This document shows, piece by piece, positions 699-63,226 of a stretch of DNA of 64,000 bases. The translations under genes were made by a program, and so were the position numbers. Where the stretch lies: NCBI GenBank assembly GCA_036245525.1, contig BTPG01000005.1, forward strand, positions 182,018,245 through 182,082,244. Reading direction: 5' to 3'. The DNA comes from Semisulcospira habei (taxonomy: Eukaryota; Mollusca; Gastropoda; Semisulcospiridae). Position 1 is the stretch's first letter. Every line of letters starts with the position of its first letter. The notes below the pieces were generated by a model. That model worked only from the letters and a program-made list of their open reading frames with translations, was not told the origin of the DNA and did no database searches.

Positions 699-959
699 TT
701 AACCCATTTAATCCTCACTCAGTTCCAAATTTTTGAGGTGTCACTTCGAGTCATTCTACCCCAACGCCGAAATCCTTAAATTTTGCCGTTGTCCTCTGAA
801 GACTGCAGTGCAGTGCAGGACACAGATCGACCGTGATAGTTCAAGGGTGATGCCAGAATAGCTTGGCGCCCATAGGCGCCAAGCTATTCTGGCATCTCCC
901 TTGAACCATCATGGTCGATCCTTATCTTGCTGTGGTGTGTCTGGGGTAGAAGGAGTTAA
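699..959. mobile_element. Family A hairpin element (AGAATAG subtype)
   Basis: TTAA lies at 699-702 and 956-959. The core palindrome at 825-920 has arms reading GTTCAAGGGTGATGCCAGAA then TAGCTTGGCGCC, around a CATA loop. The left flank is longer than the right, and the right end shows TGGGGTAGAAGGAG-TTAA. The nearest relative is the copy at 5750-5964. Non-autonomous status is inferred because no coding capacity is present. Confidence 0.75.
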
Positions 960-1779
960 GGACTATTTACCAGTGTGCATGAGATTTGGTATTTCCCGTC
1001 TGTGGCCTCGTGGCATGTGTTAGTTGGACCGTCTCGTGGGCCTGCTAAATGGAGTTGTAAGCCCCTCGAGGCCTGGCTAAGGTTAAGCCCTCAGACCTGG
1101 CATTCTGTATCACTGTCTCTTTCAACTCAGGACGCCATATGCGGGACAGAGACCGACCATTGCAGCTACACGCATGCAGCCCTGGCACGCCGCTGACACA
1201 CGAGCTGGGTCGACCATGATAGACACAGAGTGGTGCCTGGTTAGCGCTAAACTTCAAGCTTAATTGGTTCTTCTTGCTCACATTCCGAAATGTTAGTTAG
1301 ACTGGGGCAGAACCAGAGGAACGTAAACCGACCATGGCCAAAACGCGGCCTCGGCACGGTCATGCAGGAGCTGGGTAGACCATGATCTGGAACATACCTA
1401 TATCAAGGCTTTGGAAGACAGCTCCCAAATTCAGTGCATAGGGCTAGGGAAGTTCCCCGCATTGGCCTAGCACCGTCGGCGCATCAGCCGCCATCTTATG
1501 AGGATAGCATAGTCATCAGATAGTAGCGAAATGGTGTTTCAACACGTTTCTCTCCATGTTTCTTCCTCTTTGGAAGCCAACAAAAACAGATTCTGGTGAG
1601 CGGTTTCCTACAGTGATGGCAAGACTTGCTGTGATTGCTTATAGCACATCAGGACTTTCCTGACATTACAAAAACAGCGATTTCCCTATCAGCGCTTAGT
1701 CCAGCAGTGTCCTCACAAGATGGCCGCCACGACTGGCGTGATGACGTCAGCTTCCCGAGCCCAATATCAAAGTCGTGAT
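960..1779. other. Unassigned intergenic stretch
   Basis: No convincing coding region. A few words such as GACCATGATAGACA and GACCATGATCTGG recall decayed family A arms, but no palindrome can be followed. Confidence 0.4.
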
Positions 1780-1925
1780 CCTGAAGAAAAGGAGACTGCC
1801 AGGAGTGTTAAATGCAGACAACATCCAATGACGAAAAAAAAAACGCGCTCAAAAAAGACAATTACAACACAAAACAGCTGTCTTTGTAAGCGCGTTTTTT
1901 TCGTCGTTGAGATGTCCTCTCAAAG
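1780..1925. repeat. Family K palindrome
   Basis: Arms at 1817-1916 pair GACAACATCCAATGACG with its near complement ending GATGTC, and the stem carries the AACGCGCT/AGCGCGTT word typical of the family (ACACGCTTAGAAAAGACA consensus elsewhere). The preceding AAAAGGAGACTGCC matches the outer end of other K copies. Confidence 0.65.
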
Positions 1926-1951
1926 TCGTAAGGTCCAAAATTAGAGACTTT

Positions 1952-2280
1952 GGGGCCAGTTGCATGAGTGAGATTAGTCCTGCGCCAGCCACTAAGCAAG
2001 GTGCCTCGCTATAGCGTAGCACTTTGCTTAACCGTTTTAGCCCAAAGGTCCCATTTCTCAAATTTTGGAGGTGTTGCTAACGACTATGTACCAGTAGTAG
2101 AGGAGAGGGATTGATCGTGATAATTCAAGGGAAGTGCCAGGTGAGCTTGGCGCCTGAAAGCGCCAAGCTCATCTGGCACTACCCTTGAATTATCATGATC
2201 AATCCATCTCCTGCTGCAGAGTGCCGTTGCTAGAAGGGTTAATGGCTGGCTCAGGACTAAGCGCAGTCATGCAACGGATC
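1952..2280. repeat. Family G palindrome split by a family A element
   Basis: The left arm (1952-2031) and right arm (2243-2280) pair GCCAGTTGCATGAGTGAG with its complement. The family A element at 2028-2242 sits at the TTAA formed by the G word GCTTAGTGGC, so the order of insertion (A into G) can be read directly. Confidence 0.8.
2028..2242. mobile_element. Family A hairpin element inside family G
   Basis: TTAA at 2028-2031 and 2239-2242. The core arms are of the GTGAGCTTGGCGCC/GGCGCCAAGCTCATC subtype, like the copy at 22619. The asymmetric left end has the TTTTGGAGGTGTTGC segment that marks one end of most A copies. Confidence 0.85.
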
Positions 2281-2879
2281 CCAGCACTCCGCAGTGTTAG
2301 CGGTATACTATAAGAAACTATTCTACTTCTAGTTCAGCCAGCGTAGACAAGTGTTAGTATTTTCAACGTTGACCGAGTACTAAATTGAAAATCGCTGTCG
2401 TCAGAAGGAGAATGTGTGCACATAACGATCGACTACACACCTGTAGCTTGAAGCACCGATTGACTTCTCCATAGCAGGAATACAGACATAAATGTTGCAT
2501 GTTCTCGCCTAGGATGCACAAAACCTCTGCCAACCGCAAGGGCCATGGGAATCTGTGTCTCTGATGGTGGAAATGTTCGCTGCTGGAGTTTCTACTTAGT
2601 CTAATGATTTTATCGGTTCAACGCGAGACTTATTGAGTTGATGGATGAATGCATTTTTCTCCCATGTAAATAAGGAAATCCCGCCGTACAGAAACAAGCA
2701 TTTGGCTCCGGAAAAAGCGACCTGCAAGTGTGTGCTGGTCTATGATTTTGGCCACCGCACAAAAGACCCTCGGGTGATCGATGGCTATCCCCGATTCATC
2801 GGATTTCTTTACACAGTTGTACCAGAGCTTATAAATCTCGCCTATAATCAACTCCACGGAATCATTGAAGCGCGTAACA
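2281..2879. other. Unassigned stretch
   Basis: Nothing recognisable except a family F-like word (GTGCTGGTCTATGATTTTGG) at about 2732-2752. Confidence 0.4.
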
Positions 2880-3345
2880 CTGCAAAGCTAACTCACACAA
2901 AATCAACCAATCACTCTTCAAACGAGCCTTACATGCTGAGCTCTTTTTCTGCGGCCCTTGTTGCAACCACAAAGCAACCAATGGGGTTTCATGTAATCCA
3001 TAAATATGGACGTCTTTCTCTTTTCTGCGAGCCTGTCGAACCACAAAAGCAGCCAATCAGACTTCGAATGACCCGTAAGTGCGGAGCATTTTTCTCTTTT
3101 CTGCGGGCCTTTCCAAACCACAAAACAACCAATCAGCCTGCGAATGGTCCGTACGTGTGGAGCTATTTTCTGTTTTCTGCGGGGCTTGCAATACCACAAA
3201 TACAACCAATCAGGCCTCGAGTGATCCATAGGTGTGATGCTATTTTCTGTTTTCTGCGGGGCTTGCAAAACCACAAATACAACCAATCAGGCTTCGAATG
3301 ATCCATAGGTGCGGAGCTACATTTTTTTTTTATTTGTCGCACAGC
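2880..3345. repeat. Degenerate tandem array of a ~77-bp unit with CCAAT words
   Basis: About six diverged units, each with an ACCACAAA-ACAACCAATCAG-type junction followed by TTTTCTGCGGG. The two rightmost units are 77 bp apart (3204 to 3281). The array keeps a reading frame open by chance; the predicted protein changes frame from unit to unit, so I do not call a gene. Confidence 0.8.
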
Positions 3346-3551
3346 GGACCTTGTAAAACCACTCAGAGAAAAGGCAACATCATAAATTGCAAAAATGCCG
3401 AGCAGTGCATTTAGAAGTGATGGCTCCATGGGTGATTGCCCGTGTACAGTTATTGCAGGGGAAATGGATCTGAAAATGGTGTTCGTCACGCTTGAGTCAA
3501 CATTGCTTGACACTCTCCCACAAAACATATTTCATCTCTTCTTTTCCGTCT

Positions 3552-3617
3552 GCAAGAGGCATAGATTTGCATGTGCTCCTGCAGCTGCAGGGGCACATGC
3601 AAATCTATGCCTCTTGC
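3552..3617. mobile_element. Family B hairpin
   Basis: Near-perfect palindrome from GCAAGAGGCATAGATTTGCA to its complement, centred on GCAGCTGC. The variant word TTTGCATGTG is present in both arms, where most copies have CCTCATGAG. Confidence 0.85.
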
Positions 3618-4135: not shown

Positions 4136-4401
4136 TTAACCCATTTAACCCTAACGGCCACGTTTACCTCATTTCGGAGGTGTTAACGAACGACTATGCA
4201 CCACTTGCAGGAGACGGATTGACCATGATAATTCAAGGGTAGTGGTGGATTAGCTTGGCGCATTCAGGCGCCAAGCTAATCCGGCACTACCATTGAATTA
4301 TCATGGTCGGTATATCTCTTGCAACTAACGACTATGCAGCGCTTGCAGGACTAGACGTATTGGCCATGATAATTCAAGGGTGTTGGGGCTAAATGGGTTA
4401 A
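4136..4401. mobile_element. Family A hairpin element with duplicated flank
   Basis: TTAA at 4136-4139 and 4398-4401. The core palindrome carries GATTAGCTTGGCG arms. After the core, a second copy of the ACGACTATGCAnnnCTTGCAGGA flank and another GCCATGATAATTCAAGGGT arm start follow, so part of the element is duplicated before the terminal GGGGCTAAATGGG-TTAA. Confidence 0.8.
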
Positions 4402-7267: not shown

Positions 7268-7299
7268 TTAACTCATTTGAGACGTGCCGCATGAGTTAA
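7268..7299. mobile_element. Miniature family D derivative
   Basis: Only 32 bp: TTAA, the family D left arm start CTCATTTGAGACGTGCCGC, and ATGAG-TTAA. It looks like an internal deletion of a D element that removed nearly all of one arm. Its right TTAA is also the left TTAA of the next element. Confidence 0.75.
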
Positions 7300-7618
7300 C
7301 CCCTTCGCTGCCAGTGATCACTAATGTTCGCTTCAGAAAAGACACGACGTAGAAAAACACAGATGTAATTGTGACAAAATTAGGTATACAGAACCTAAGG
7401 GTAACAAGAGGCATAAATTCTCATGAGCTCCTGCGGTGAGAGGTCATTCAGGTACCAGCCAGTTGTTTGGATGAGCTCCTACGCGAACTGAGATACGTGG
7501 ATTCGAGAGAGGCATTCAGGCGAGCCATAAAGACCCATCTTTTTCTGTCTGCTACGAATGACTTTGTCGTGTTGAAGTCATCTGTAACTCTATTAGAAGT
7601 AGTGTGTGCATGTGTGTG

Positions 7619-7692
<74 letters not shown>

Positions 7693-7883
7693 CGCGAGCG
7701 CGCGTGCGTGAGTGCGAGTATGAGTCCATAAGCGTAGCATTATTGAATGGTGACTTTATAGCTTCTTTCTAGAGTGCGTTGTATTTTGTTTAGTACTTTT
7801 GTAATTGCGTTTTGTAATTAGTTATTTTGTACAATTAGTTTTGTTAAGCCTAGCTCTATTCTGAGGTTAGGCGCTATACAAGT

Positions 7884-7917
<34 letters not shown>

Positions 7918-7968
7918 GTCCCTTGCAGATGGGTAGCGTTTGCCTTGCCTTGGCAGTTAAGGGGTTAA
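7296..7968. mobile_element. Family B element split by a LINE 3' fragment
   Basis: TTAA at 7296-7299 and 7965-7968. The left side has CCCCTTCGCTGCCAGTG and then the B arm AAGAGGCATAAATTCTCATG at about 7408-7427. The right side has CCTTGCAGATGGGTAGCG and TTGGCAGTTAAGGGG. The interior is occupied by the LINE fragment at about 7447-7918. Confidence 0.65.
7447..7918 (+). mobile_element. LINE 3' end (CR1/L2-like), with (GT)n
   Basis: A short frame reads REAFRRAIKTHLFLSATNDF, the kind of FKxxLKTHLF ending seen at the C-terminus of many CR1/L2-group ORF2 proteins. After a (GT)n run (7601-7690) the segment ends with GGCGCTATACAAGTACTCATT and (ATT)n, a common LINE or SINE tail. Clade assignment is an inference. 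Confidence 0.6.
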
Positions 7969-8535: not shown

Positions 8536-9006
8536 TTAACCCATTTAGTCCCGAGTCCCTACAGCAGGAGATTACTGGATTGACCATGATAATTCAAGAG
8601 TAGTGCCAGATTAGCTTGTCGCCTTCAGGCGCCAAGCTAATCTGTCACTACCCTTGAATTATCATGATTGTACATTGATTGTACATTGCTTAACGTCCCG
8701 ACAGCAACAAGGCTTTCTCAGGACGTGCCTGCACTGCTTGTGAAAAAAAAAAAAAAAACAACAGAACATTGAATGTATGTCGCCAGCCGGTCAAATACGT
8801 TAAATAAACCTAACACATGGGGCCTAAATAAAGCTAAGACCATTTAGCAACACACATCCAATATCAAGAGCTACAGGCAGTGCAGACAGGAGGGAGAGTT
8901 TTAAAAAGGCAAATACATGATCAATCCATCCCCTACCACTGGTACATAGTCGTTAGTCGACACCTCCAAAATTTGAGAAATGGGACCTCGGGGCTAAAAG
9001 GGTTAA
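8536..9006. mobile_element. Family A element interrupted by a SINE-like insertion
   Basis: TTAA at 8536-8539 and 9003-9006. The core palindrome (GATTAGCTTGTCGCC and its complement) is complete; the right flank is split by the insertion at 8669-8915 and resumes with ATGATCAATCCATCCCC and GGGGCTAAAAGGG-TTAA. Confidence 0.85.
8669..8915 (-). mobile_element. SINE-like element C, minus strand, 6-bp duplication
   Basis: Read on the minus strand it matches the 3' parts of 45781-46167 and 58977-59334 (CTGCCTGTAGCTCTTGATAT, TTGCTGTCGGGACGTTAA) and ends in repeated GTACAATCAAT. The flanking CATGAT at 8663-8668 and 8916-8921 is the target duplication, taken from the host A arm. Confidence 0.8.
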
Positions 9007-10609: not shown

Positions 10610-11035
10610 TTCTTGTAGTTCAAGGAGTGTATGAGTCAGATTACCAGCGCGTGTCAGTTCCTCTAGTGTCCCGAAATGCAAATTTTAATTGAATCGAATT
10701 CAAACCACGCAGACTTCATACTGACCATGCTCGTGTTCGTCGCCTCGCGACATTTGAAGACATCGCTTTTCAAAATATTTCAACAGGCAAATTTCAAGTT
10801 AACCCTCTGGTTGTCGGTGGCGCATTTTGTCGAGATGATTCATGCATGCATCTCATCGACAAGAAGTGCGGCTGACCGACAACCGAGGCCGGGCTGAATC
10901 CCGGTCTGGACAAAATAAAAGCGGTTTCTCGGCCGTCACAGTTTCACATTGCTGTTAGTGATATACACTCCTCCTGCACTGATGATACAGGCAATGCTTG
11001 GTATGTTAACCTCTCCAAGCATGCGGCATCGTCCA
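10610..11035. repeat. Dispersed duplication, copy 1, with family E hairpin
   Basis: Matches about 20696-21120 in the same orientation (TTCAGTTCTTGTAGTTC, TCAGATTACCAGCGCGTGT, GACATCGCTTTTCAAAATAT). A family E palindrome starts at TTAA 10799 (CTCTGGTTGTCGG pairing with CCGACAACCGAG near 10890), and a family C start lies near 11007. The conserved surroundings suggest a larger element that already carried both hairpins. Confidence 0.75.
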
Positions 11036-11156: not shown

Positions 11157-11362
11157 TTAACCCATTTAGCCCCGAGTCCCTACAGCAGGAGATTGAGTGA
11201 CCATGATAATTCAAGGGTAGTGCCAGATTAGCTTGGCGCCTTCAGGCGCCAAGCTAATCTGGCAGTACCCCTGAATTATCACGGTCAATCCACCCCCTGC
11301 AACTGGTCGTTGAGCAACACCTCCAAACTTTGAGAAATGGGACTTACGGCTAAAAGGGTTAA
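11157..11362. mobile_element. Family A hairpin element, near consensus
   Basis: TTAA at 11157-11160 and 11359-11362. Left end CCCATTTAGCCCCGAGTCCC; core palindrome with GATTAGCTTGGCGCC arms around TTCA; right flank with CACCTCCAAACTTTGAGAAA and GGCTAAAAGGG-TTAA. A good reference copy. Confidence 0.9.
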
Positions 11363-13659: not shown

Positions 13660-14165
13660 AAAACTTCGGTTATAACGAATCGCTTGGGACGCAACGTTTT
13701 GCTTGGATTATCCGAAGTTTTATGTAAGTAAGTAGTTTTATAAAAAACGTGAAAAAGGTGATGTATCCGACTTTTGTTATATCCGATTGTGTTATAAGCG
13801 AAGTGGACTGTATGAGCGCAGTAATGTACACAGAACTGGTTTGAGCCTGTGAAAAAGGTGTTGTTTTATCAGACTTTGTTAACCCATTGCATCCTGAGGC
13901 TGATTTGGTAAAATTTGCTTATCATCAGTTGTCCTGTAAAGGCTACAGTAAAGACTAGAAGATAAGATCAACTGATTTAGTTCAAGGGTGGTGCCAGAAT
14001 AGCTTGGCGCCTCCGGCGCCAAGCTATTCTGGCACCACCCTTGAACTATCAGTCAAATTTATTTCAAGCAATGGGTGTATCAGGATGATCTAAGGGTTAA
14101 CTTTATATTCGATTTTTTTTTTTTTGGTGTTATCTCTGACTTTGTTGTGTCCGACCTTGTTATAA
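13660..14165. mobile_element. pogo/Tigger-like MITE remnant hosting family A
   Basis: Words such as TTATATCCGATTGTGTTATA with AGCGAAGTGGACTGTA, and TGTGTCCGACCTTGTTATAA with GCAAAGT, lie on both sides of the A element at 13879-14100. TTATAAGCGAAGTGGACTG resembles a pogo-type end. Similar words occur at 56285-56330 and 43965-44060. Confidence 0.5.
13879..14100. mobile_element. Family A hairpin element, AGAATAG subtype
   Basis: TTAA at 13879-13882 and 14097-14100. Ends read CCCATTGCATCCTGAGGCTG and CAGGATGATCTAAGGG, so they are also inverted. The core arms (GGTGGTGCCAGAATAG and TTGGCGCC) pair perfectly around TCC. Confidence 0.85.
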
Positions 14166-14696: not shown

Positions 14697-14760
14697 GAAG
14701 AGGCATACATCCACATGAGCCCCCGCAAGGCGGGGGCTCATGTGGATCTATGCCTCTTGC
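14697..14760. mobile_element. Family B hairpin with longer 3' flank
   Basis: GAAGAGGCATACATCCACAT pairs with ATGTGGATCTATGCCTCTT; the CACATGAG variant is in both arms. The flank to about 14935 (GTGTATTCATGTTTCTTGGA, ACACAGGTTTTAGAAACA, and a family C-like CAGCCACGG part) recurs after the B hairpin at 36063-36127, so it belongs to a larger repeat. Confidence 0.8.
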
Positions 14761-15084
14761 TGACTGACACCACTGTGTATTCATGTTTCTTGGACGAAAG
14801 AAATTCGTCGGCGTTGAGTTAACACAGGTTTTAGAAACACAGTCTGTGTCCCCAGGCAGGGGAGGGGTTAGTCCCCTAGTGCATACAGCCACGGAAGTGT
14901 AAGCGGTACCGACGACTGCATACACAAGGAGGGTAAAACAACAACAACAACAACCACAACATTCGTTCAGCTTTGTGTTTTAGGAGCGCGGCGCTGCCCT
15001 TAAGCTGTCATGCTAAATGACTCTGATCCCTCATTTATCATTCTCGTTCAGTGTGACAAAATCGGGCTACAATCAGTCTGTGAA

Positions 15085-16791: not shown

Positions 16792-19700
16792 CCTCGCGCT
16801 GGGACCATACGGCGTTGAGGCGCGTCCCCTGGGTGGTGGATAGGGGGTCCCTCGTGAGAGGGGTGCACCGAATGAAATAAGGTGCCGTGAACCAACATGG
16901 TCTAAGGGAAGGTGACCCCGACAGAAAACCCCTGGTCCTCCTAGTAAGGGGGTTGGGCGTGGGGGTAGCTTCCCCACCCTGCAAAAAAGGAAATAGCTAC
17001 AAAAACGCCGACGAAAAGACTAACAGTAATTCCTTTCCTGGAGGAGGAAGGTTCTTCTACTAGAAGACTTATGACATCCTGTGGTGAAAGCCGGAAGTCT
17101 TCGGAAGCCACAGGACCGAGCCGCCTCTCTCTATCCAGGGATACAACCATGGGCACATGGAACGTCAAGACCATGTACCAGAGCGGCAAGGCCGCCCAGA
17201 TAGCAGCGGAAATGCAAAAGTACAACCTTTCCCTGCTAGGCATCAGTGAAGCCAGATGGACACAGTCTGGCCAGAAAAGGCTGTTAAGTGGGGAGATGGT
17301 TCTGTATTCAGGTCATGAAGAGGAGAATGCCCCCCATACAGAAGGAGTAGCACTCATGCTGTCACCAGTGGCACAGAGAGCGCTGATGGGCTGGGAACCT
17401 CTTGGGCCAAGAATTATAACAGCAGCCTTTAGAACCAAGAAAAAGCTCAAGCTGAACGTCATCCAGTGCTATGCGCCCACCAATGACAGTGACGAGGAAG
17501 AGAAACAAGAGTTCTACGACCGACTCCAGAGTGCCGTGGACAAATGTGCGGAGCGAGACATCACCATCGTCATGGGCGATTTTAATGCCAAAATAGGGGA
17601 GGACAACACCGGATACGAAGAGGTGATGGGGAGACAGGGACTAGGCTCGGAGATGAGTGAGAACGGGGAGAGGTTTGTAGACTTTTGTGCTCTAAACCGA
17701 CTTGTCATTGGAGGCAGCATCTTCCCACACAGAAGAATACACAAAGCAACTTGGGTCTCACCGGACCATACAACAGAGAACCAAATAGACCATATCTGCA
17801 TTAGCAAGAAATTTAGAAGATCCCTTCAAGATGTTCGAGCGAAGAGGGGAGCAGATGTCGCCTCAGACCACCATCTGCTTACCTTAAGAATGAAGCTCAA
17901 GCTAAAGAAAAGCCGCACAGAGACAACAAGAAGACAGCGCTATAATGTAGGCCTCCTGAGAGAAACTGGAGTTAGAGAAGAGTTCAAACTGGTGCTGTCC
18001 AACCGGTTTCAAGCGCTACAGGAGCTAGTAAATGAAGAGGAGGCGGTCACCACAGAGCAGCAGTGGAAGGCAGTTAGAGAGGCGCTGAACTCAACCTGCA
18101 AAGACACTGTAGGGTTCAGGAAACACCATCACAAGGACTGGCTGTCGGCACAGACCTTGAAGAAGATAGAAGCGAGGAAGCAGAAGAAAGCAGCGGTCAA
18201 CAACAGTCGCACGAGAGCAGCCAAAGTAAGGGCACAGGGGGAATACTCGGAAGCCAACCGCGAGGTGAAGAGGAGTATCAGGGCAGACAAGAGGGCCTAC
18301 ACAGACAGCCTGGCAGCAGAGGCAGAAAAGGCAGCAGGCAGCGGCAACATGAAACAGCTCTACGACATTACCAGAAGATTGTCGGGTAAGTATGGCCATA
18401 CAGAAAGACCAGTAAAAGACAAAGAAGGCAAGCCTATTGCAGACAGAGCAGACCAACTCGACAGATGGGCCGAGTATTTTGAAGAGTTACTGAACAGACC
18501 TAGCCCACCCGACCCCCCCGACATCCAGCCGGCAGAGACCGACCTACCCATCAGCTGTGACAGACCCAGCCGGGAAGAAATCAGAAAAGCAGTGGCATTT
18601 TTGAAGAATGGCAAAGCAGCAGGGCCAGATGGCATCCCAGCGGAGTCTCTGAAAGCAGACCTAGAGACAACAGTTGAGATGCTGTACCCACTGTTTGGAA
18701 AGATCTGGGAAGAGGAGGTGATGCCAGCTGACTGGAAGGAGGGGTACCTAATCAAGCTTCCCAAGAAAGGCGACCTCAGCAAGTGTTCCATCTACAGAGG
18801 AATCACCTTGCTGTCAGTACCAGGAAAGGTCTTCAACAGGATCATCCTAGAGAGAATGAAGAGCTCCGTTGACCCCCAGCTGAGAGACCAGCAAGCAGGA
18901 TTCAGGAAGAACCGATCATGTACAGACCAGATCGCCACTCTCCGCATCATCGTGGAACAGTCTCTGGAGTGGAGCTCCCCGCTGTACGTCAACTTTGTGG
19001 ATTATGAGAAAGCATTTGACAGCGTGGACCGAGAGACTCTGTGGAAACTCCTACGACACTACGGGGTACCCACAAGGCTCGTCCGCCTGATCAAGAGCAG
19101 CTATGATGGCATGACATGTCGCGTGATCCACGAAGGGCAGTTCACCAGAGAGCTCCAGGTCAGAACTGGTGTCAGGCAGGGGTGTCTGCTGTCTCCATTC
19201 CTCTTCCTACTGGCCATAGACTGGGTCATGAAGATGACCACAGAGCACAGACGAAGTGGAATACAGTGGACACTGTGGACACAGCTTGACGACCTCGATT
19301 TTGCAGACGACCTGGCATTACTGTCCCACACTCATCAACAAATGCAGGACAAGACCACGAGGCTTGCTGACATCTCGTCCCAAGTGGGCCTCACCATTCA
19401 CAAACAGAAAACAAAGACAATGAGGCTGAACGCAACCAGGGAAGAACCAGTCTTGCTTGCTGGCACCCCGTTGGAGGAGGTGGAGTCCTTCACCTATCTC
19501 GGGAGCATCATAGACAAAAAAGGCGGCACTGATGCAGATGTCAGAGCACGAATCGGTAAAGCCAGAGCAGCCTTTCTCCAGTTGAAAAAAGTGTGGAGTT
19601 CCAGAGAGCTGTCACAACACACCAAAGTCCGGATTTTCAACTCCAATGTAAAAGCAGTTCTCCTATATGGAGCAGAGACATGGAGATTGACAAAAACCAC

Positions 19701-21098: not shown

Positions 21099-21165
21099 TT
21101 AACCTCTTCAAGCATGCAGCCACCGGTACTGTGAATACCGGCGGCTTGATGTACAAAAAGTTTAA
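21099..21165. mobile_element. Family C hairpin
   Basis: TTAA at 21099-21102 and 21162-21165. GCATGCAGCCACCGGTACTG pairs with CCGGCGGCTTGATGTAC. The right TTAA is shared with the next element. Confidence 0.85.
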
Positions 21166-21211
21166 CTCATTCGAGTCGTGCCATCCAGGCGGCACATCTC
21201 GAATGAGTTAA
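21162..21211. mobile_element. Short family D hairpin
   Basis: TTAA at 21162-21165 and 21208-21211. CTCATTCGAGTCGTGCC pairs with GGCACATCTCGAATGAG; the inner stem seen in longer D copies is missing. Confidence 0.85.
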
Positions 21212-22618: not shown

Positions 22619-22839
22619 TTAACCCATTTAGCCCCGGGACCATGCAGCAGGAGATGGATTGATCATGATAATTCAAGGGTAGTGCCAGGTGAGCTTGGCG
22701 CCTGAAGGCGCCAAGCTCATCTGGCACTACCCTTGAATTATCATGATCAATCCACCTCCTACAACTGGTACATGTATAGTCGTTAGGCAACACCGCCAAA
22801 ATTTCAGTAATGGGACCTTGGGGCTACTAAAAGGGTTAA
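22619..22839. mobile_element. Family A hairpin element, GTGAG subtype
   Basis: TTAA at 22619-22622 and 22836-22839. Core arms GGTGAGCTTGGCGCC/GGCGCCAAGCTCATC around TGAA. Confidence 0.9.
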
Positions 22840-24443: not shown

Positions 24444-24658
24444 TTAACCCCTTACATCCTGACACACTAGCGCATAAAATCAATTTGTCTATGATAGTTC
24501 AAGGGTAGTACCAGAATAGCTTGGCGCCTATGGGCGCCAAGCTATTCTGGCACTGCCATTGAACTAAAATAGTTCATCTGTCTACTAATCTGCAATGGGA
24601 CCCTCATAAGACAAGACACTAATCTGAAAACTTTCAGCCTCAGGATGTAATGGGTTAA
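24444..24658. mobile_element. Family A hairpin element, AGAATAG subtype
   Basis: TTAA at 24444-24447 and 24655-24658. Ends CCCCTTACATCCTGA and TCAGGATGTAATGGG are inverted; the core carries AGAATAGCTTGGCGCC arms around TATG. Its end subtype matches 13879 and 42717. Confidence 0.9.
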
Positions 24659-26794: not shown

Positions 26795-27333
26795 TTAACC
26801 CTTTCAGCCCCAAGGTCCCATTTCTAAAATTGTGGAGGTGTTGCCTAACGACGGTGTACCAGTTGCAGGAGATGGCATGACCATGATAATTCAAGGTTAG
26901 TGCCAGATTAGATTGGCGCCTTCAGGCGCCAAGCTAATCTGGTACTCTCTTGGCTTGACTTCGCGAACGAAGATTCTATAGGGCTTGCCCACGTCGTCTG
27001 CAGGCATATTTGTGGCTGCGGAGGCCAATCCGGAACAGGCAGGTTCGACCGCAGTGGCTGCAGGGGAAGGTCTGGCCAGGGTTCTGAGTTACGACAGCTC
27101 TGTTTTTTCTCCTGAGCCGCTTGTCCTTAAGGTTAGCTCTACGAGAGTCCTCAAAGGAGACGGCTGCCTTGTAAGTGGTGGAGCGCCAGGTGTCGCGGTC
27201 CGCAGCAATCGAAGACCACTGGCGGTGGTCGATTTGGCAGGCACTAAGTGGCGCCAAGCTAATCTGGTACTACCCTTGAATTATCATGGTCAATCCATCT
27301 CCTGCTGTAGGGATCCGGGACTAAAAGGGTTAA
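26795..27333. mobile_element. Family A element with a LINE fragment in its right arm
   Basis: TTAA at 26795-26798 and 27330-27333. The left arm, TTCA loop and first part of the right arm are followed by the insert at 26947-27249. The 22 bases 26925-26946 are repeated exactly at 27250-27271, after which the right arm continues. Confidence 0.9.
26947..27249 (-). pseudogene. LINE ORF C-terminal fragment with zinc-binding end
   Basis: Minus-strand frame of about 90 residues: WRSTTYKAAVSFEDSRRANL, basic KDKRLRRKNR, then CSHCGRTCLFRIGLRSHKYA. The CxxC...GLRSHxxxC pattern is a zinc-binding C-terminus shared by many LINE endonuclease-reverse transcriptases of fish and invertebrates (established pattern). 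The stop codon comes after the C-x-RRRGQAL end. The 303-bp insert has a perfect 22-bp target duplication and no catalytic domains, so it is an extreme 5' truncation. Confidence 0.8.
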
Positions 27334-32374: not shown

Positions 32375-32377
<3 letters not shown>

Positions 32378-37339: not shown

Positions 37340-37494
37340 AACCTGCTTGCTACAGACGGGGGCGATGTTTCATATGTGAGTGTGTTGTTTTCCATATCAG
37401 AGCTGTATGAATGCAGTTATTTGTGATTGTTTTGCGCTGAATAGGTTGGTCTAGCAGACTGCTGCCGAGTGGAGGCAAAAAACATTAACCCTTT

Positions 37495-37580
37495 GGCTGT
37501 CGGTAGCGGTTTTAGTCGCGAGGACTCCTGCAGCAGTCATCACTGCTACAACCGCTACCGACACCAAAAGGGTGTATTAA
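37495..37580. mobile_element. Family E hairpin
   Basis: TTAA at 37495-37498. CCCTTTGGCTGTCGGTAGCG pairs with CGCTACCGACACCAAAAGGG. It ends at the TTAA (37577-37580) that starts the next element. Confidence 0.8.
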
Positions 37581-37768
37581 CCATTTTAGCCCCAAGGTCC
37601 CGTTCCTCAAATTTGGGAGGCGTTGCCTAACGACCAGTTGCAGGAGATGGATTGATTATGATAATTCAAGGGTAGTGCCAGATGAGCGCCAAGCTCATCT
37701 GGCACTACCCTTGAATTATCATGATCTATCCATCTCCTGCTGCAGGGTCCCGGGGCTAAATGGGTTAA
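37577..37768. mobile_element. Family A hairpin element with central deletion
   Basis: TTAA at 37577-37580 and 37765-37768. The stem goes GGTAGTGCCAGATGAGCGCC then AAGCTCATCTGGCACTACCC: the AGCTTG part and loop have been lost from one side only. Confidence 0.85.
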
Positions 37769-40676: not shown

Positions 40677-40745
40677 TTAACCCTCTTGTGACTAAAACCG
40701 CCGGTGACGTAATCATTACCGTGGCTGCATGCACGAAGGGGTTAA
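40677..40745. mobile_element. Family C hairpin
   Basis: TTAA at 40677-40680 and 40742-40745. Ends CCCTCTTGTG and GCACGAAGGGG; stem with CCGCCGGTGACG-type words, rather diverged. Confidence 0.75.
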
Positions 40746-44412: not shown

Positions 44413-45605
44413 ACACAGTTTCCATTTTTATAGCCAATGACTCAATAACAGGACAAGTGCAAAATAAACTTACGGGTTGAAACTTGTTTTTTTCAAAAAT
44501 GAACTTACAGACACGACTACAATGTACTGTTCATATTTCTTTGGCGATAATTGTAACTGTGGTGCCCGTATGTCCATTTTGAAAAAGAAAAGCTTTTAAC
44601 TCGGACATTGAATAAACTGTATTTGTAGTAACAGTACTTGACCTTTCTGTTGTGTCATAGGTTTCTATGACCTCTGTCACTGTTGACACATAGGTAAATA
44701 CGACAGAGCTGAATCCAACAATGACATAACTCTAGTACTGACCTCTGACGCACAACGAATCTGGCAATGGAACAATGAACTCGTTGAGCGGAACGTATAC
44801 GGGCCGATGTTGGCCGTAGTTGGCCCGCGCACAACAGTGCGCGGGCCAACTGCGGCCAACTTCGGCCCGAGGATCTTTCGCTTCTTCGTCACGGTGGACA
44901 GTTCGACCGTCCACCAATTGTAGCTGACGAACGAGTTCATTGTTCCATTGCCAGATTCGTTGTGCGTCAGAGGTCAGTATTAGAGTTATGTCATTATGGC
45001 ATTCAGCTCTGTCGTATGTGTCAACAGTGACAGAGGTCATAGAAACCTATGACACAACAGAAAGGTCAAGTACTGTTACTACAAATACAGTTTATTCAAT
45101 GTTCGAGTTAAATGCTTTTCTTTTTCAAAATGGACATACACCACAGTTACAATTCTCGTCTAAGAAATATGAACAGTACATTGTAGTCGTGTCTGTATGT
45201 TCATTTTTGAAAAAAAAAAAAGTTTCAACCCGTAAAAAATGAAAAGAAAAGGGGAGACTGCCAGTGCTAATATTTTAGGAAGGTTACAAAGTAAAGTAGG
45301 TAATAGCACTGTCAGGGGAGAGAAGTGTGCATGATCGACCAGTGATCACAGATCCACTGTGGCCAAAGCACACAAGAAAAGAGATATGAAAGAGGGGGTG
45401 AGCTAAGAAAGTGACTGGAAGCAATGCGCATGGAAGCCCCCTCCCCCCCCCCCCCCCCCCCCGAAGGGGGGCGCATCACATATCCCACTGTTCCAGCCAC
45501 TTCTCTCCCCTGGCAGTGCTGTTACCTACTTTACTTTGTAACCTTTCAACCCGTAAGTTTATTTTGCACTTGTCCTGTTATTGGCTATAAAAATGGAAAC
45601 TGTGT
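44413..45605. repeat. 1.2-kb foldback with ~370-bp arms
   Basis: The left arm 44413-44786 pairs with 44930-45231 plus 45548-45605; the right arm is interrupted at 45236-45543. Paired words include AACAATGAACTCGTT/AACGAGTTCATTGTT, TGACCTCTGACGCACAACGA, AGTACTTGACCTTTCTGTTG and ACACAGTTTCCATTTTTATA. Arm identity is high by eye. The 44787-44929 spacer holds a family I palindrome (GCCCGCGCACAACAGTGCGC centre). Family K words precede the left arm (44345-44405). Confidence 0.9.
45236..45543. mobile_element. Family J insertion with 13-bp direct repeats
   Basis: TTTCAACCCGTAA occurs at 45223-45235 and 45544-45556. The insert itself folds: GGTTACAAAGTAAAGTAGGT with AATAGCACTGTCAGGGGAGA (45282 on) pairs with the complement ending 45543. 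The interior (GTGTGCATGATCGACCAGTG, CATATCCCACTGTTCCAGCC) matches 21880-22060, and it includes a C run at 45436-45462. Confidence 0.75.
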
Positions 45606-46295: not shown

Positions 46296-46440
46296 TTAAC
46301 TCATTCGAGACGTAAAGCAACTTGCCAGCGGGACGTTAAAAAGGAACTAATGAATGAATGAATGAATGAATAAGACGTAAAGCATACGGATACGCGGCAA
46401 TAGCCGCGTATCTGTATGCCGTTCGTCTGGAATGAGTTAA
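46296..46440. mobile_element. Family D hairpin with a 53-bp insertion
   Basis: TTAA at 46296-46299 and 46437-46440. Left arm CTCATTCGAGACGTAAAGCA is interrupted at 46320-46372 and resumes as TACGGATACGCGGC; the right arm is complete. Confidence 0.85.
46320..46372 (+). mobile_element. Extremely short retroelement 3' fragment
   Basis: ACTTGCCAGCGGGACGTTAA with an (AATG)n tail, flanked by the perfect 12-bp repeat AGACGTAAAGCA at 46308-46319 and 46373-46384. The GGGACGTTAA word also ends SINE-like element C. Confidence 0.85.
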
Positions 46441-46477: not shown

Positions 46478-46720
46478 TAATAATAATAATACTGTTTATT
46501 GCCATTTGCCTTAAGAACATAAAGCATAGGAATGTGTGTTGGTGTCGTTACAATTACAAACATCACATTCAACTCTATCACACAATTCAATGCTCTACAC
46601 ACACTGTCAAACTTTAAAACTGAACAACTAATCTCACAAACCCATACGTACCCATTCACACACCCACGCTTATTTCACACACACACACTCACACAACACA
46701 CACGCTTATTAATCTAAGAA
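46478..46720 (-). mobile_element. Retroelement 3' end, minus strand
   Basis: (AAT)n followed by ACTGTTTATTGCCATTTGCC, the orientation of a minus-strand tail. The upstream part has no clear coding match. Confidence 0.45.
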
Positions 46721-51400: not shown

Positions 51401-52445
51401 GATAGAGGAGGGACTGATCCAAATGATAGAAGCGCTTTACAAGAACGCCTGCAGCGCGGTTCTACTTAACAATCAGTCAGGCGAGTTCTTCAGGACGACG
51501 ATCGGTGTCCGTCAAGGATGACTGCTCTCTCCTGTCCTTTTCAACATATTCCTGGAGAAGATCATGCAGGAAACCCTCCACGACCACCATACTTCAATCT
51601 CTATTGGTGGCAGATCCCTGTGCAATCTTCGATTCGCAGACGACATTGACCTCATGGCAGGCAGCAATAGTGAGCTCCAAAACCTGACAGACAAACTTTC
51701 AAGTAGCGCAGGGTCTTATGGCATGGAGATCAGTACGGATAAAAGCAAAGTGATGATCAACACCACAAGCGACAGCAGCAGCAACATTCACATGAACGGC
51801 CAGAAGCTAGAAGAGGTCAATAGCTTCAAGTACTTGGGAGCCACCCTGTCCAAAGACGGTAGTTGCATAGCAGAGATCCGTATCAGGATAGGTACAGCAA
51901 CATCCGCAATGGCCAGGCTGGACAGGATATGGCGAAGTAACTCCATCAGCTTCACCATCAAGTACAGGCTTTACAAGTCCCTCGTAGTGTCTATTCTACT
52001 CTACGGCTGTGAGACTTGGACACTGCTTGCAGACTCAGAAAAGAAAATCCAGGCCTTTGAGAACAAGTGCCTGAGGAAGTTGCTCCGCATCTCGTACCGC
52101 GAGCACAAGACCAACGAATATGTACGGAGCATCGTCACTTCCCTGGTGGGCCCACATGAACCCCTTCTGGCAACCGTGAAACGGCGCAAGCTTGCTTGGT
52201 TTGGCCACGTGACCCGACACAACACCTTGTCCAAGACTATCCTCCAAGGCACTCTCGAAGGAAGTCGTCGGCGAGGTCGTCAGAGAAAGAGTTGGGTCGC
52301 AAACATAAAAGAATGGACCGAACTCGAGATGCCAGACTTGCTTGCCACCGCCCAAAATAGAACTCAGTGGAGAGCACTGTCTGTTGCTGCTGCCTTTCAG
52401 TCCCCCCAACGCCCAGTTCGGGCAAGGGACTGATGATGATGATGA
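51401..52445 (+). mobile_element. 5'-truncated LINE with 9-bp target duplication
   Basis: TGAAATCTA flanks it at 51392-51400 and 52446-52454 and belongs to the SINE host. It ends with the stop codon merging into (TGA)n. A shorter copy of the same family is at 38616-38886. Confidence 0.92.
51405..52433 (+). pseudogene. LINE reverse transcriptase C-terminal half with UGA stop
   Basis: Reads GLIQMIEALYKNACSAVLLN, then GVRQG and an in-frame TGA at 51519-51521 where the family has Cys (GVRQGC), then LLSPVLFNIFLEKIMQ. FADDIDLMAGSNSELQNLTD, GMEISTDKSKVM, FKYLGATLSKDGS, LLYGCETWTL and FGHVTRHNTLSKTILQGTLE follow to a normal terminus. The first catalytic Asp region and the whole endonuclease are missing. 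It is dead twice over: by 5' truncation and by the stop. LINE clade not resolved (RTE- or Jockey-group style C-terminus). Confidence 0.9.
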
Positions 52446-53654: not shown

Positions 53655-54113
53655 AGGCGTGTTTCCATATAGCGGCGCGAAAGCGGTGTCGACGGCGACA
53701 CCAATCGAGAACCGAAAAATAAAGGAGTGTTTCCATTATTATGCGGGACACGATAGCGGCGCGATTACTGTGCGACAGGCGACAGCAGCGCGACACCATT
53801 TTACCGCCCCATAGAGCGGTTCAGCCGGGGTCCTGCTGTGAAGTGAGGGTGACTTTTAGTATGTGACCCTGACAAACTGCAGCAATTTGAAACAACTTTA
53901 ACCCTCTTAGCCCCCAAGGTCCCATTTCTCAGATTTTGGAGGTGTTGCCCAACGACTGTGTAGCAGTTGCAGGATCCCGGGGCTAAAAGGGTTAATAGAG
54001 ACGCGATGCCGTCCGTCACGCCGCTATTTGAAAGCACATGAAGCGATTTTCAGCTACTTTTTGGCCGTGTGGACTACCGCGACAATATCGCTTAGCTATA
54101 TGAAAACACGCCT
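53655..54113. mobile_element. PIF/Harbinger-like MITE with a nested family A derivative
   Basis: Terminal repeats AGGCGTGTTTCCATATAGC (from 53655) and its near complement (ending CGCCT at 54113), one mismatch in 19. TTA flanks at 53652-53654 and 54114-54116. A 3-bp TWA duplication is the PIF/Harbinger signature (established). The interior has GCGGCGCGA and GCGCGACACC words on both strands. Confidence 0.75.
53898..53995. mobile_element. Family A element lacking its whole palindrome
   Basis: TTAA at 53898-53901 and 53992-53995. The left flank CCCTCTTAGCCCCCAAGGTC to AGCAGTTGCAGGA runs straight into TCCCGGGGCTAAAAGGG. The core is absent, a deletion between the GCAGGA-like words that border the stem. 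Confidence 0.9.
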
Positions 54114-54211: not shown

Positions 54212-54338
54212 TTAATCCTTTGGGTGTCTGTAGCGCTTTTTGTCGCGATGATTCCTGTAGGGTTAACCTTTTGACTGTCGAGATGATGCCTGTCGGAATC
54301 ACCTCGACAAAAAGCGCTACCGAGAGCCAACGGGTTAA
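54212..54338. mobile_element. Family E element with repeated left part
   Basis: TTAA at 54212-54215 and 54335-54338. After TTGTCGCGATGATTCCTGTA a second GGGTTAACCTTTTGACTGTC left end follows, then the right arm CACCTCGACAAAAAGCGCTA. Confidence 0.8.
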
Positions 54339-55188: not shown

Positions 55189-55295
55189 TTAACCCGTTCA
55201 GTGCCGAGAAAATCCGAACATCACCCAGCTGCAAGAGGCATAGATCGTCATGAGCCCCCGCAGTTGCGGGGGCTCATGAGGATCTCTGCCTCTTG
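55189..55295. mobile_element. Family B element
   Basis: TTAA at 55189-55192; hairpin 55231-55295 with near-consensus arms around CCCCCGCAGTTGCGGGGG. Right flank TCCATGTTCTTGGGACAGCT as in other long B copies. Confidence 0.88.
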
Positions 55296-55359
55296 ATGAC
55301 ATCACTTTGAATCCATGTTCTTGGGACAGCTGGGACATTTTGGTGTTGAATTAACACAG

Positions 55360-55677
55360 GATACACAAACCTTCTCTGTCTGCGGTCCATCCACCTGGAA
55401 CACCGTCCCACTCTCTCTCCCTCAGAAACCCTCTCTCTCCTCCTTCCAGTCCACCCTCAAAACGCACCTCTTTCAACATTTCTAGCACTCTAACGCCACC
55501 GCCCTCCCCCCCCCCCCCCCTTTCAAGCTGAAAGCGTAATGTATTTGTGATATGTGAGTCATTGTTAAAAGCGTGCACATGCGTGCGTGAGTTGTGAGTG
55601 CGCGCTTAGTGTTATAATTATTATAAGATACGCGCATTAAAAATACCGTAATTATTATTTATTTATTATTAAACTAT
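55360..55677 (+). mobile_element. LINE 3' end (CR1/L2-like)
   Basis: A frame reads FSVCGPSTWNTVPLSLPQKP, then SFQSTLKTHLFQHF and a stop, the usual C-terminal motif of CR1/L2-group LINEs. The 3' UTR (GCGCGCTTAGTGTTATAATT) also occurs inverted at 40780-40935. Confidence 0.75.
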
Positions 55678-56073
55678 TAAACGCTATCTGCGTACTAACT
55701 GGCACTGAACAGGTTAAAGCGAACTGCGCTGCAGGGCGGGAGTTTTACTGCTACAATGCACAGCGGATACAACTCATACAATGTTGTCCAGCCTCGTGGA
55801 AGACTTTTCTGCTTATCGTTTAACAAACCATGTGAGTAGACACGTGACACAGGTGTGCTGCTGTCCCATGTGCTGCAGCTAAGGAATTCTGCAACGTACA
55901 AAGGAGAAGAAGAGTAGAGAAGTCTTTCATATCACGCCATTCAAACTGTATAATAGCCCTTTAATAGCGCTAGTAGCCCATTTGTGCAAAATGTATTGCA
56001 ACATTAGCCCATTTGTGCAAAATGTATTGCAGTACGAATGAAGAACGTTTATAACGGAGATCCTGATTGGCTA
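55678..56073. other. Unassigned stretch
   Basis: A short tandem copy of AGCCCATTTGTGCAAAATGT (55976 and 56004). Nothing else recognised. Confidence 0.4.
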
Positions 56074-56267
56074 TTAACCCGCCTCACTGCCAGTGGAAGC
56101 AGTGTGTGTTTTTGAAGTCAGTCCCCTTGTCCAAATAACACGGATGCAAAGTGTTGTCCGCAAGAGACATAGATCCTCATCAGCCCCCGCAACTGCGGGG
56201 GCTGATGAGGATCTATGTCTCTTGCAGTTGGATTGTGTTCACTTTTTCTCGGCAGTACAAGGGTTAA
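56074..56267. mobile_element. Complete family B element, TTAA on both ends
   Basis: TTAA at 56074-56077 and 56264-56267, 194 bp. Hairpin 56160-56225 with ATCAGCCCCCGC/GCGGGGGCTGAT, where the CATGAG/CTCATG of other copies is CATCAG/CTGATG in both arms. Best reference copy for the family. Confidence 0.92.
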
Positions 56268-59529: not shown

Positions 59530-60062
59530 GAAAACAACAACATTCCAACGAAGAGACAAATTAACACACTTAGAGAAGACAGCAACAACTGAATTTATTA
59601 ATATTTCGGTTTAAACCTTCTTTTTTTTTTTTTTTCTCCAAACTAGACGTATACAAACAAGCGTGTCATTTGCTGATTATCTTTTCGTGTGAAGTGGCAA
59701 CTTGTGTATTGTTCGTTTGTCCTTTTGAAGCTAAGATTAACTCATTCAGCCCGACGACCGTGTTTCCAAAATTTTGGAGGCGTCATCTAACGACTATGCA
59801 CCTATTGCAGGAGATGGATCGACCATGATAATTCAAGGGTAGTGCCAGATTAGCTTGGCGCCGACAGGCGCCAAGCTAATCTGGCACTACCCTTGAATTA
59901 TCATGTTCGACCCATCCCCTGCTGTAGTGCGTCAGGGCTGAATGAGTTAAAAGGACAATTACAAGACAGTTTATCAATGCTTATCGTTAAAACCCGAAAT
60001 ATTAATAAATTGTCTTGTAATCGTCCTTTCTAAGCGTGTTTCTTTCCTCGTTTCACATGCTT
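59530..60062. repeat. Family K palindrome split by a family A element
   Basis: AACAACATTCCAACGAAGAG, ACACACTTAGAGAAGACAGC and TTTATTAATATTTCGG on the left; CCGAAATATTAATAAATTGT, CTAAGCGTGTTTCTTTCCTC on the right. A TTAA in the loop took the A element at 59737-59950. Confidence 0.75.
59737..59950. mobile_element. Family A hairpin element, CAGCCCGACG end subtype
   Basis: TTAA at 59737-59740 and 59947-59950. Ends CTCATTCAGCCCGACG and CGTCAGGGCTGAATGAG are inverted; core perfect but for one base, loop GACA. Confidence 0.93.
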
Positions 60063-60708: not shown

Positions 60709-60853
60709 TTAACCCATTCAGCCCTGTCGGCGCCAAGCTAATCTGGCACTGCCCTTGAATTACCATGGTCGATCCATCTCTGCAACTGATGCATAGTCAT
60801 TAGATGACGCCTCCAAAATTTGGGAAATACGTGCGCCGGGCTGAATGAGTTAA
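60709..60853. mobile_element. Family A element, left arm deleted
   Basis: TTAA at 60709-60712 and 60850-60853. CCCATTCAGCCCTGTC joins directly to GGCGCCAAGCTAATCTGGCA and the rest of the right side. Confidence 0.9.
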
Positions 60854-61427: not shown

Positions 61428-61475
<48 letters not shown>

Positions 61476-61717: not shown

Positions 61718-61744
61718 TGACGGACTGCATGAATGGCAAACCAT

Positions 61745-61880
61745 GTGCAATTATTCCGCTATTTCAGACTAATATTTCATATAAGAAAAGTTGTTTTTGC
61801 AAGTCATGGCGACATTTAGGCCAATGAATTTCCTCATCGGAAAATTGCTTTTGACTGGCGGGAGAAGAGGGAGGCTGGGA
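61745..61880. repeat. Inverted copy of the 35285-35425 repeat
   Basis: Starts TGCAATTATTCCGCTATTTC and ends with CTTTTGACTGGCGGGAGAAG, the reverse complement of the other copy. Confidence 0.8.
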
Positions 61881-62127
61881 GGGAGAGTGAGAGTGCGTGT
61901 GTGGGTGGGGGGTGGGGGGAGGGGCTGAATCGAATCAAAATGCCATATTATAAAGGATATGTCCTCTGAAGAGACTTTGTATACAAGGCCAGAAGAGAGA
62001 CATCATCTATGCGAAATGGACCAGGCTGCTTTAGAGAACTGCACTGATTCTCATGAGCACACACCCCGCCCCCTCTCAGCGCGTCAGTGCCTTCCAGCGC
62101 CTCGGGATGAATCCATGACTGCACAGA

Positions 62128-62263
62128 AGAACCCAATGGAGAAAGAAACACGCTTAGAAAAGACAGTTACAACACAATTTATTAATATATCGGGGGGGGG
62201 GGGGGGAGAAACAACAACCTCTCTTCGTTTTACACGCTTGGCATCACCTTTTTGGTCTGGAGT
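62128..62263. mobile_element. Family K copy between imperfect 14-bp repeats
   Basis: AGAACCCAATGGAGAAAGAA, ACACGCTTAGAAAAGACAGT, AATTTATTAATATATCGG, then a G run and TTTTGGTCTG. CATGACTGCACAGA and CATGACTGCATAGA flank it (13 of 14 equal). No full right arm. Confidence 0.55.
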
Positions 62264-62332
62264 GCATGACTGCATAGACACAAACGTTGCCAGAAACTTA
62301 CGTGTGATGATTTCGGAGCCTACAACCCAGGG

Positions 62333-62519
62333 GACAGTTGCATGAGTGAGCACCTTGCGCAGTGGCTAGCGCAGGACTAAGCTCACTCATTGCCACTGGT
62401 CCCAGGGCAATAAGGTCCAAGAGGAAAGACCAGCGTGAAGAGAGACATACTTTGTGCTGGTCTGTGGAATTTGCATCTCGTGGGGCACTTTCTTGAGGTA
62501 CAAAATTACAGATCAGTTA
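62333..62519. repeat. Family G palindrome with family F arms
   Basis: GGACAGTTGCATGAGTGAGC pairs with GCTCACTCATTGCCACTGGTCC (62333-62404). F-like words AATAAGGTCCAAGAGGAAAG and GTGCTGGTCTGTGGAATTTG follow. Confidence 0.65.
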
Positions 62520-63104
62520 ACAGAATCGTGTTTTCACTGTGCACATCAGTCAGCAAGAGACACAGATGTAAAATTCGTCCAGGAGACAACATAGATCCTC
62601 ATGAACCGACATAAGAACACAGTGCTATCACTCTACTATGTAAAAATGTTATAAAATATAACATTATCTAGCTTTGCTAAGAACCTTTACACATCTCATT
62701 CGCTGATATACATAAATGACACCAGCAATAGGCATAGATTGCAGACGCTTGGCCTTCACCTTTGACGTATGACGCAAACACTTGCAACACAATCTGCTAT
62801 GGAAGAGGCAGTGGAACACAGGAGAGCCATGAGAGACGTCTCATTAGGTGTAATCTTCTTTCTCCCTGGCACTCAATATGTGCCCATGGTCTGGTCTGTG
62901 ATTGTCCACCTTCAGATGGCCGCACCGTGCACAGTCCGGGATTAACTCTGTAGTCTGCGTGATGTCCAGGCGGCATAGGAACCCTGGGGTCCAGTGATGG
63001 CAATGCCAATCCTTTTTTGAATATAGTATGGTCAAAGGTTGTTTGTTTTGGCCGATATTTGTTCCTGTGGACTATACATCCTTTTGACCCTCTCGAAGTA
63101 GAGA
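62520..63104. other. Unassigned, with B-like arm fragments
   Basis: Isolated words such as CATAGATCCTCATGAACCG (62590) without partner. No gene recognised. Confidence 0.4.
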
Positions 63105-63226
63105 TTAACACATTCTGCCCCATGACTGAAATCCCCAAATTGTGAATTTGCTCTCTGAAGGACTTTATTACAATCCTAGAGACAGATCGAGCATTATAGT
63201 TCAAGGGTGGTGCCAGAATAGCTTGG
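63105..63226. mobile_element. Family A element truncated after the left arm
   Basis: TTAA at 63105-63108, flank CACATTCTGCCCCATGACTG, arm TATAGTTCAAGGGTGGTGCC and AGAATAGCTTGG; the right arm is missing. Confidence 0.8.

Follow-up and report, generated by a model that had tools for sequence, protein, structure and literature searches.

Palindromic TTAA-bounded miniature elements of Semisulcospira habei have piggyBac-like ends and were probably mobilised by more than one piggyBac transposase

piggyBac transposases bind the terminal inverted repeats (TIRs) of their elements, excise them at TTAA via hairpin ends and use TTAA again for insertion. The targeting of TTAA and the intermediates with hairpins are described in the accessible sections of a study of the piggyBac transposase (PMC7351741). 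Among miniature inverted-repeat transposable elements (MITEs), the closest described counterparts of the elements reported here are the CMITEs of Acropora corals, which comprise six families with different, mostly CCC-type TIRs and TTAA target duplications. According to the accessible sections of that paper, the internal region of CMITEs is more conserved between families than the TIRs, the coral genome also has piggyBac elements, one of them with the TIR of a CMITE family, and the TIRs of piggyBac MITEs begin with CC[C/T]T (PMC2872659). We analyzed a stretch of 64,000 nucleotides, hereafter the window, from the gastropod Semisulcospira habei (GenBank assembly GCA_036245525.1, contig BTPG01000005.1, positions 182,018,245 to 182,082,244 of the forward strand), in which an initial annotation had named palindromic hairpins of five families, A to E. 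Our analysis indicates that these hairpins are TTAA-bounded MITEs without a transposase gene and with ends like those of resident piggyBac elements, and that they very probably moved by cut and paste through several different piggyBac transposases, not through a single one.

Like the CMITEs, the elements of this genome are bounded by TTAA, fall into several TIR families, are better conserved in the core than in the TIRs and coexist with piggyBac elements, for one of which there is moderate evidence of a TIR match. Unlike the CMITEs, which measure about 100 bp and are not called palindromic in the accessible sections of PMC2872659, they have a near-perfect hairpin core and a length of 206 to 222 bp in the elements compared; arm-symmetric subfamily changes and CTC starts are further differences. 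The printed 60-base CMITE core gave no match below an E value of 1.6 in 290,453 bases of the genome. With the piggyBac superfamily (structures 6x67 and 9c0f) the present set shares the TTAA target, a short TIR starting with C and transposase homology, but several lineages here start with CTC, not CC[C/T]T, and the MITEs carry no transposase. The Kolobok elements and T2-MITEs of Xenopus are similar in their TTAA target and in having many MITE subfamilies in one genome; Kolobok ends, in contrast, begin with AG or RR in the accessible part of PMC6004289. Pokey and mPok of Daphnia (PMC4912750) are comparable as members of the piggyBac superfamily (PMC3849761) with MITE groups in one genome, and Pokey inserts in ribosomal DNA as well as elsewhere, as far as the accessible parts of these two papers go. 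Since the coral CMITEs already combine these features, the present set belongs to an already known kind of element.

The assembly that contains the window measures 1.98 Gb in 507 contigs, and 8 large contigs account for 1963 of 1983 Mb, which fits eight chromosomes. All 10 hairpins that had been named carry TTAA on both sides, and the hairpin observation was confirmed. The statement that all of them start with TTAAC and end with GTTAA or GGTTAA held for 9 of the 10 at each end; the exceptions are the start at 54212 (TTAAT) and the end at 21165 (GTTTAA). Both CYC and GRG termini, described as common to all, were found in 8 spans but not in the other two. The claim of dozens of copies in 64 kb was borne out, as BLAST in the window (E up to 1e-4) placed core A at about 30 sites and core B at about 23, by our own count of the matches. 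The cores of families A, B, C, D and E appear unrelated to one another by BLAST in the window, and their ends, sorted by eye, fall into at least nine TIR types (Table 1). Tested against CC[C/T]T, the MITE TIRs vary at the fourth base, and many begin with CTC. After the left TTAA, the ten spans continue with C[CT]C, CCT or TCC. We searched these ten left ends for the RR or AG terminus of a Kolobok MITE and found none beside TTAA. Kolobok is another superfamily with a TTAA target, but its ends are given as RR in general and as AG in the ten full-length Xenopus cases (PMC6004289, accessible part), and the full elements with C[CT]C-type ends found here carry a piggyBac transposase (a Kolobok transposase was not searched for). 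Membership in Kolobok is therefore very improbable.

We compared the window with 100 first-order Markov sequences. TTAA-CYC and GRG-TTAA sites together numbered 75, against 17.2 +/- 4.4 in the null (maximum 28), and TIR-matched TTAA pairs with pyrimidine starts numbered 15, against a null mean of 0.06 (maximum 1). The commonest triplets beside TTAA were CCC (47) and CTC (28).

The edges of family A were examined across the genome, and those of families B to E within the window. Forty family-A places, the scored part of 2545 first-look genome candidates found with the core as query, yielded 787 alignments of at least 185 bases. TTAA lay within 4 bases in both copies at 814 of the 1574 pairwise alignment ends, so that it often stands at the edge of homology in this family, as the initial annotation had anticipated; the best of eight other palindromic tetramers reached 29 of 1574. 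Flank columns outside TTAA had almost no information content (64 distinct ends, from 46 of 59 core copies after removal of short copies, of copies close to the end of a record and of copies whose flanks were duplicates); as the ends had been chosen by TTAAYYY, only these flank columns are informative. That the palindromes are not mobile at all, having arisen by inverted duplication or replication slippage with the terminal TTAA incidental, would agree with a palindrome at 44596-45111 that continues past its TTAA and with one segment carrying E and C hairpins that was duplicated as a block. Against this, family-A copies are surrounded by unrelated flanks at 40 places and show a tendency to end at TTAA, and nested copies replace a single 4-base slot; immobility can hardly be credited.

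Empty sites were sought by comparing joined flanks within at most 290,453 bases of genome sequence, in which the relatives are paralogous. Testing of 122 TTAA-bounded units gave 39 junction-spanning matches, self-matches and weak ones included, and the interpretation draws on the individual matches cited in this text. Three insertions of PB1, one of the resident piggyBac elements described below, have empty relatives with a single TTAA: that of locus L036 (window 27107-27150 and locus L057), that of L056 (Table 1) and that of L048, for which the relatives are neighboring units of its own satellite. A PB4 element in L059 is nested in an A2-type MITE, and TTAA is kept in 2 of 8 related copies. 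The empty relatives of MITEs are just 66-82% alike, so that they display the 4-base slot directly, with TTAA as its presumed target sequence. Two repeats at these sites deserve separate mention. The dispersed repeat at 26948-27250 interrupts an A MITE, and its L036 copy holds the PB1 element while its L057 copy is empty; the satellite of L048 consists of units of about 84 bases carrying TTAA.

The genome search for piggyBac-like transposases with like ends, which the initial annotation had called for, was productive. PF13843 matched all 116 scored candidates (of 1058 first-look genome matches), and 93 of these 116 loci have no stop inside the match by our own count; the same search was positive in 0 of 14 control genomes. 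The open frames were 363 to 687 residues long, and identical domain scores recurred in several copies. With a TIR pair defined as a match of 11 or more among 14 bases beside TTAA, such a pair was present at 17 of 30 loci in a first set and at 5 of 6 in a second. Full elements with matching TIRs beside TTAA comprise seven types, PB1 to PB7, which start with TTAA-CYC or TTAA-CCT; CTC starts occur also in PB2, PB5 and PB6 and, for PB3, at the left end. PB1 and PB4 are 68% identical and PB2 and PB5 62%, and the remaining pairs are about 25-34% identical, which argues for five deep piggyBac lineages. PB1 and PB6, the two compared with solved structures, match piggyBat 9c0f (E values of 7e-30 and 3e-57) and piggyBac 6x67. 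Three of their aspartate motifs align with piggyBat, and we take these aspartates to be the D-D-D catalytic triad of piggyBac. On the basis of the DDE_Tnp_1_7 domain and homology to solved enzymes, PB1 to PB7 are predicted to encode piggyBac transposases. Together, the family-A edges, the resident transposases with like TIRs and the three single-TTAA empty sites of PB1 uphold the proposed TTAA-specific, piggyBac-type origin. One further transposase locus, L065, of which one end was seen (TTAACTCGGTAGTGG, on the C-terminal side), possibly represents another lineage.

To match hairpins with transposases, we compared 309 TTAA-YYY ends with 14 PB ends, using 300 shuffled TIR controls; L053 was the one piggyBac locus included, and ends that start with CCCATATAAGCC were excluded. 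PB6 ends matched the ends at window position 959 and at position 3809 of L053 at 11 of 13 inner bases, a score reached by 0.003 and 0.007 of the shuffles, respectively. The next best match, to a PB1 end, was reached by 0.020 of shuffles and was the best among the other 12 PB ends. Both PB6-matching ends belong to core-bearing family-A elements (747-959 and one in L053), and the other end of the L053 element (CTCATTCTACCCCAAC) has the same 16 bases as a PB6 end, two bases off TTAA.

The initial annotation had credited a single system with moving all families. We abandoned this part of the proposal because the genome has five coexisting transposase lineages, at about 25-34% identity and each with its own TIRs, and the MITE TIRs differ beyond their first bases. 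One lineage could still have mobilised every family if it tolerated any TTAA-CYC end. The families do have TTAA and mostly C[CT]C in common, a short terminal motif plus core could permit cross-mobilisation as suggested in the accessible sections of the CMITE paper (PMC2872659), and most families lack a specific partner so far found. However, such tolerance would sit poorly with the coexistence of five deeply split lineages, with the match of one A subfamily to PB6 ends, and with 16-base TIRs that are conserved within subfamilies (83-86% within, 56-59% between). We consider a single tolerant lineage unlikely and favor mobilisation by several piggyBac transposases.

A number of observations weigh against this interpretation. 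At 760 of the 1574 family-A alignment ends, homology does not stop at TTAA. A plain count of TIR-matched pairs of any sequence gives TTAA no advantage over other tetramers (TTAA 15, GATC 15, AATT 14, CATG 14, ATAT 121 and TATA 137). Simple repeats are the probable source of the ATAT and TATA counts, and family-A arms contain GATC and CATG; as simple repeats and hairpin arms probably fill the other counts, this cruder control says little, and the TTAA signal lies in the specific CYC ends. Many MITE ends are CTC, not the published CC[C/T]T. Empty sites with a single TTAA, which the initial annotation had proposed to look for, were seen for the three PB1 insertions given above and, in 2 of 8 relatives, for the PB4 insertion, and the empty relatives of the MITEs rarely keep TTAA. 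PB1 insertions in L040, L032 and L033 have paralogues without TTAA at the slot (e.g., TTAG). For the A element at 2028-2242, six alignments were obtained, and the slot reads TTAG in four of them and ATAG in the other two; the repeat copies involved are window 19-193, L089 and the other arm of the element's own host repeat. An A1 element inside a B element in L028 has TTAA in 1 of 5 uninterrupted relatives (window 14733-14870), or in 0 of 3 under other scoring, and the weaker relatives of L018 and L019 are without TTAA. For the 50-bp D element, the joined-flank comparison yielded no empty site. The link of PB6 to one A subfamily is of moderate strength, because 14 PB ends were tested, and no autonomous partner for A1, A2, A3, B, C, D or E was found among the seven sampled elements.

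Family A had been treated as one family. It mixes several TIR types, which align end to end as subfamilies of one element. Nine hand-picked elements of the A1, A2, A3 and PB6 types (six from the window and three from other loci, the two of PB6 type having TTAA at one end only) aligned end to end over 206-222 bases. Identity between types amounts to 83% in the core, 56-59% in the TIRs and 53-60% in the subterminal parts; within types, the values are 91%, 83-86% and 78-84%, and TIR conservation within a subfamily spans 16 bases. Core conservation is partly biased in this comparison, as the core was the query used for finding the A places. Given the contrast between core and TIRs, the four types look like subfamilies of one lineage, with ends changing faster than the palindrome. 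We also considered the core as a separate insertion in unrelated MITEs. This was set aside because elements with the four end types are similar in length and can be aligned over their full extent, the core being flanked by roughly 50 bases on one side and 80-100 on the other, and because the core-less copy at 53898-53995 looks like a deletion product: its sequence is consistent with loss of the whole palindrome between TGCAGGA direct repeats.

The two arms of the cores have tended to change together. In core A (58 copies), 86 cells had changes in both arms, compared to 31.1 expected under independence, and pairing was retained in 79 of the 86; one arm only was changed in 123 cells. In core B (30 copies), 46 cells had changes in both arms, compared to 18.6 expected, 38 of them with pairing retained, and 104 cells had one-arm changes; the expectation ignores relatedness among copies. 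Paired changes cluster at few positions, and the changes that mark subfamilies fall in both arms. Ongoing correction between the arms of single copies was not supported, as the two arms of one copy differ more (mismatch of 0.068 in A and, for 28 copies, 0.137 in B) than a copy differs from its closest counterpart (0.047 and 0.115). Symmetric subfamily founders are accordingly favored over continuing correction. In yeast, template switching extends the arm identity of imperfect palindromes (PMC3820800, accessible part), and we infer that it may have acted on these palindromes too. Arm-symmetric evolution of piggyBac MITEs was not reported in the titles and abstract openings listed by our searches of an open-access library.

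These observations can be accommodated in a model in which each MITE family would be bound via its own TIR by a matching piggyBac lineage and carried in trans, being cut at TTAA through hairpin intermediates and reinserted at TTAA. The palindromic core would be an inherited passenger, each subfamily seemingly founded by a near-symmetric palindrome, and the TIRs would change faster than the core as transposase lineages turn over. More tentatively, and with less than even confidence, the core may be a long-lived passenger that outlasts its drivers, the TIRs having been repeatedly remodelled to piggyBac lineages (A1, A2, A3 and PB6 types) and each subfamily founded by a re-symmetrised palindrome. 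Re-symmetrising might occur, for example, by hairpin template switching or through selection for the fold.

Table 1. Hairpin elements, empty sites, resident piggyBac elements and TIR types, with positions in the window or lengths
Feature	Position or length	Strand	Ends and remarks
A, subfamily A1, palindromic core	22619..22839	+	TIR CCCATTTAGCCCC
A, subfamily A1	11157..11362	+	
A, A1-like	4136..4401	+	
A, A1, broken by other sequence just right of core	8536..9006	+	
A, A1, broken by dispersed repeat at about 26948-27250	26795..27333	+	
A, A1, abuts E-type hairpin at 37485	37577..37768	+	
A, nested in another hairpin repeat	2028..2242	+	Empty relatives with single 4-base slot, TTAG/ATAG
A, A1 ends without palindromic core	53898..53995	+	
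A, subfamily A2	24444..24658	+	TIR CCCATTACATCCTGA
A, subfamily A2	13879..14100	-	
A, subfamily A3	59737..59950	-	TIR CTCATTCAGCCCGACG
A, A3-type ends, truncated core	60709..60853	+	
A, PB6-type TIR	747..959	-	TTAA at 959 end (TTAACTCCTTCTACCCCAG), none left at 747 end
B hairpin MITE	56074..56267	+	
B, broken by other sequence	55189..55717	+	TIR CCCGTTCAGTGCC
C short hairpin	40677..40745	+	
C short hairpin, TTAA shared with D element	21099..21165	+	Left flank duplicated at 10780-11010
D, 50-bp palindrome	21162..21211	+	
D hairpin	46296..46440	+	
E hairpin, partial second E copy inside	54212..54338	+	TIR of CCCTTTGGCTGTCGG type
E hairpin	37485..37571	+	Right TTAA altered (GGGTGTATTAA)
TTAA-bounded unit	7296..7968	+	TIR CCCCTTCGCTGCC / CCCCTTAACTGCC
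Empty site, PB1 insertion of L036	27107..27150	+	Single TTAA at 27127-27130
Empty site, PB1 insertion of L056	46491..46534	+	Single TTAA at 46511-46514
A2-type sequence, empty site for PB4 insertion of L059	42831..42919	+	TTAA
PB1	2.9 kb		TTAA-CCCATATAAGCCTG
PB2	3.0 kb		CTCTTACCAGTTC
PB3	3.2 kb		CTCTTTGACACCGTA and CCTTTTGACGCCGTA
PB4	2.8 kb		CCCACTAATGCCC and CCCATTATTGCCC
PB5	3.0 kb		CTCTTAAACGTT
PB6	3.4 kb		CTCTTTCTACCCCAG and CTCATTCTACCCCAA
PB7	3.4 kb		CCCTTTCGCCGCCG and CCCTTTCGTCGCCG
TIR type A1			CCCWTTTAGCCCC
TIR type A2			CCCATTACATCCTGA
TIR type A3			CTCATTCAGCCCG
TIR type PB6			CTCMTTCTACCCCAG
TIR type B			CCCGTTCAGTGCC
Further TIR type			CCCCTTAACTGCC
TIR type C			CCCCTTCGTGCATGC
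TIR type D			CTCATTCGAGACGTG
TIR type E			CCCTTTGGCTGTCGG

Decayed ends, a block duplication and further repeats also occur in the window. Among the D copies, those at 37260 and 46974 have each lost a TTAA, and that at 39855 has lost both. The D palindromes at 7268-7299 and 21162-21211 are TTAA-bounded but measure no more than 32 and 50 bases, a very small size for a substrate of transposition. The resemblance of the E-type copies at 10799 and 20874 extends into the flanks beyond TTAA, so that they appear to be a single block that was duplicated; the block occupies 10780-11010 and 20860-21105 and comprises an E-type hairpin and a C-type start, with an internal C-run in one copy. The 516-bp palindrome at 44596-45111 was rejected as a TTAA-bounded element because its homology runs beyond TTAA. 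It is contained in a large inverted repeat (44446-45580), and it is the homology of the arms of this repeat that extends past TTAA. A separate hairpin repeat with arms starting AGTTGCATGAGTGAG is present at 20-178 and 1951-2280, its second copy being split by the A MITE at 2028-2242. Three frames of non-LTR retrotransposons are also present: one at 17071-20085 (RVT_1 with DUF6451 and endonuclease domains), one at 32062-34527 (821-residue RVT_1, up to 64% identical to database proteins) and one at 51564-52433 (an RVT_1 fragment with a sub-threshold DUF6451 match).

At minimum, these results add a documented community of piggyBac MITEs. In a genome about 10 times as large as that quoted for Acropora millepora, they also show once more that the core is better conserved than the TIRs, a pattern for which the accessible sections of the coral paper offer no explanation (PMC2872659). 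The drivers could be recognised by full elements whose ends are CCCATTTAGCCCC, CCCGTTCAGTGCC, CTCATTCGAGACG or CCCTTTGGCTGTCGG, and the ends found here could be tested in cell assays. With one core, four TIR types and five transposase lineages, the genome offers a natural panel for how MITEs stay mobile as transposases change. If the core is indeed a passenger, one MITE lineage would have survived the turnover of several transposases.

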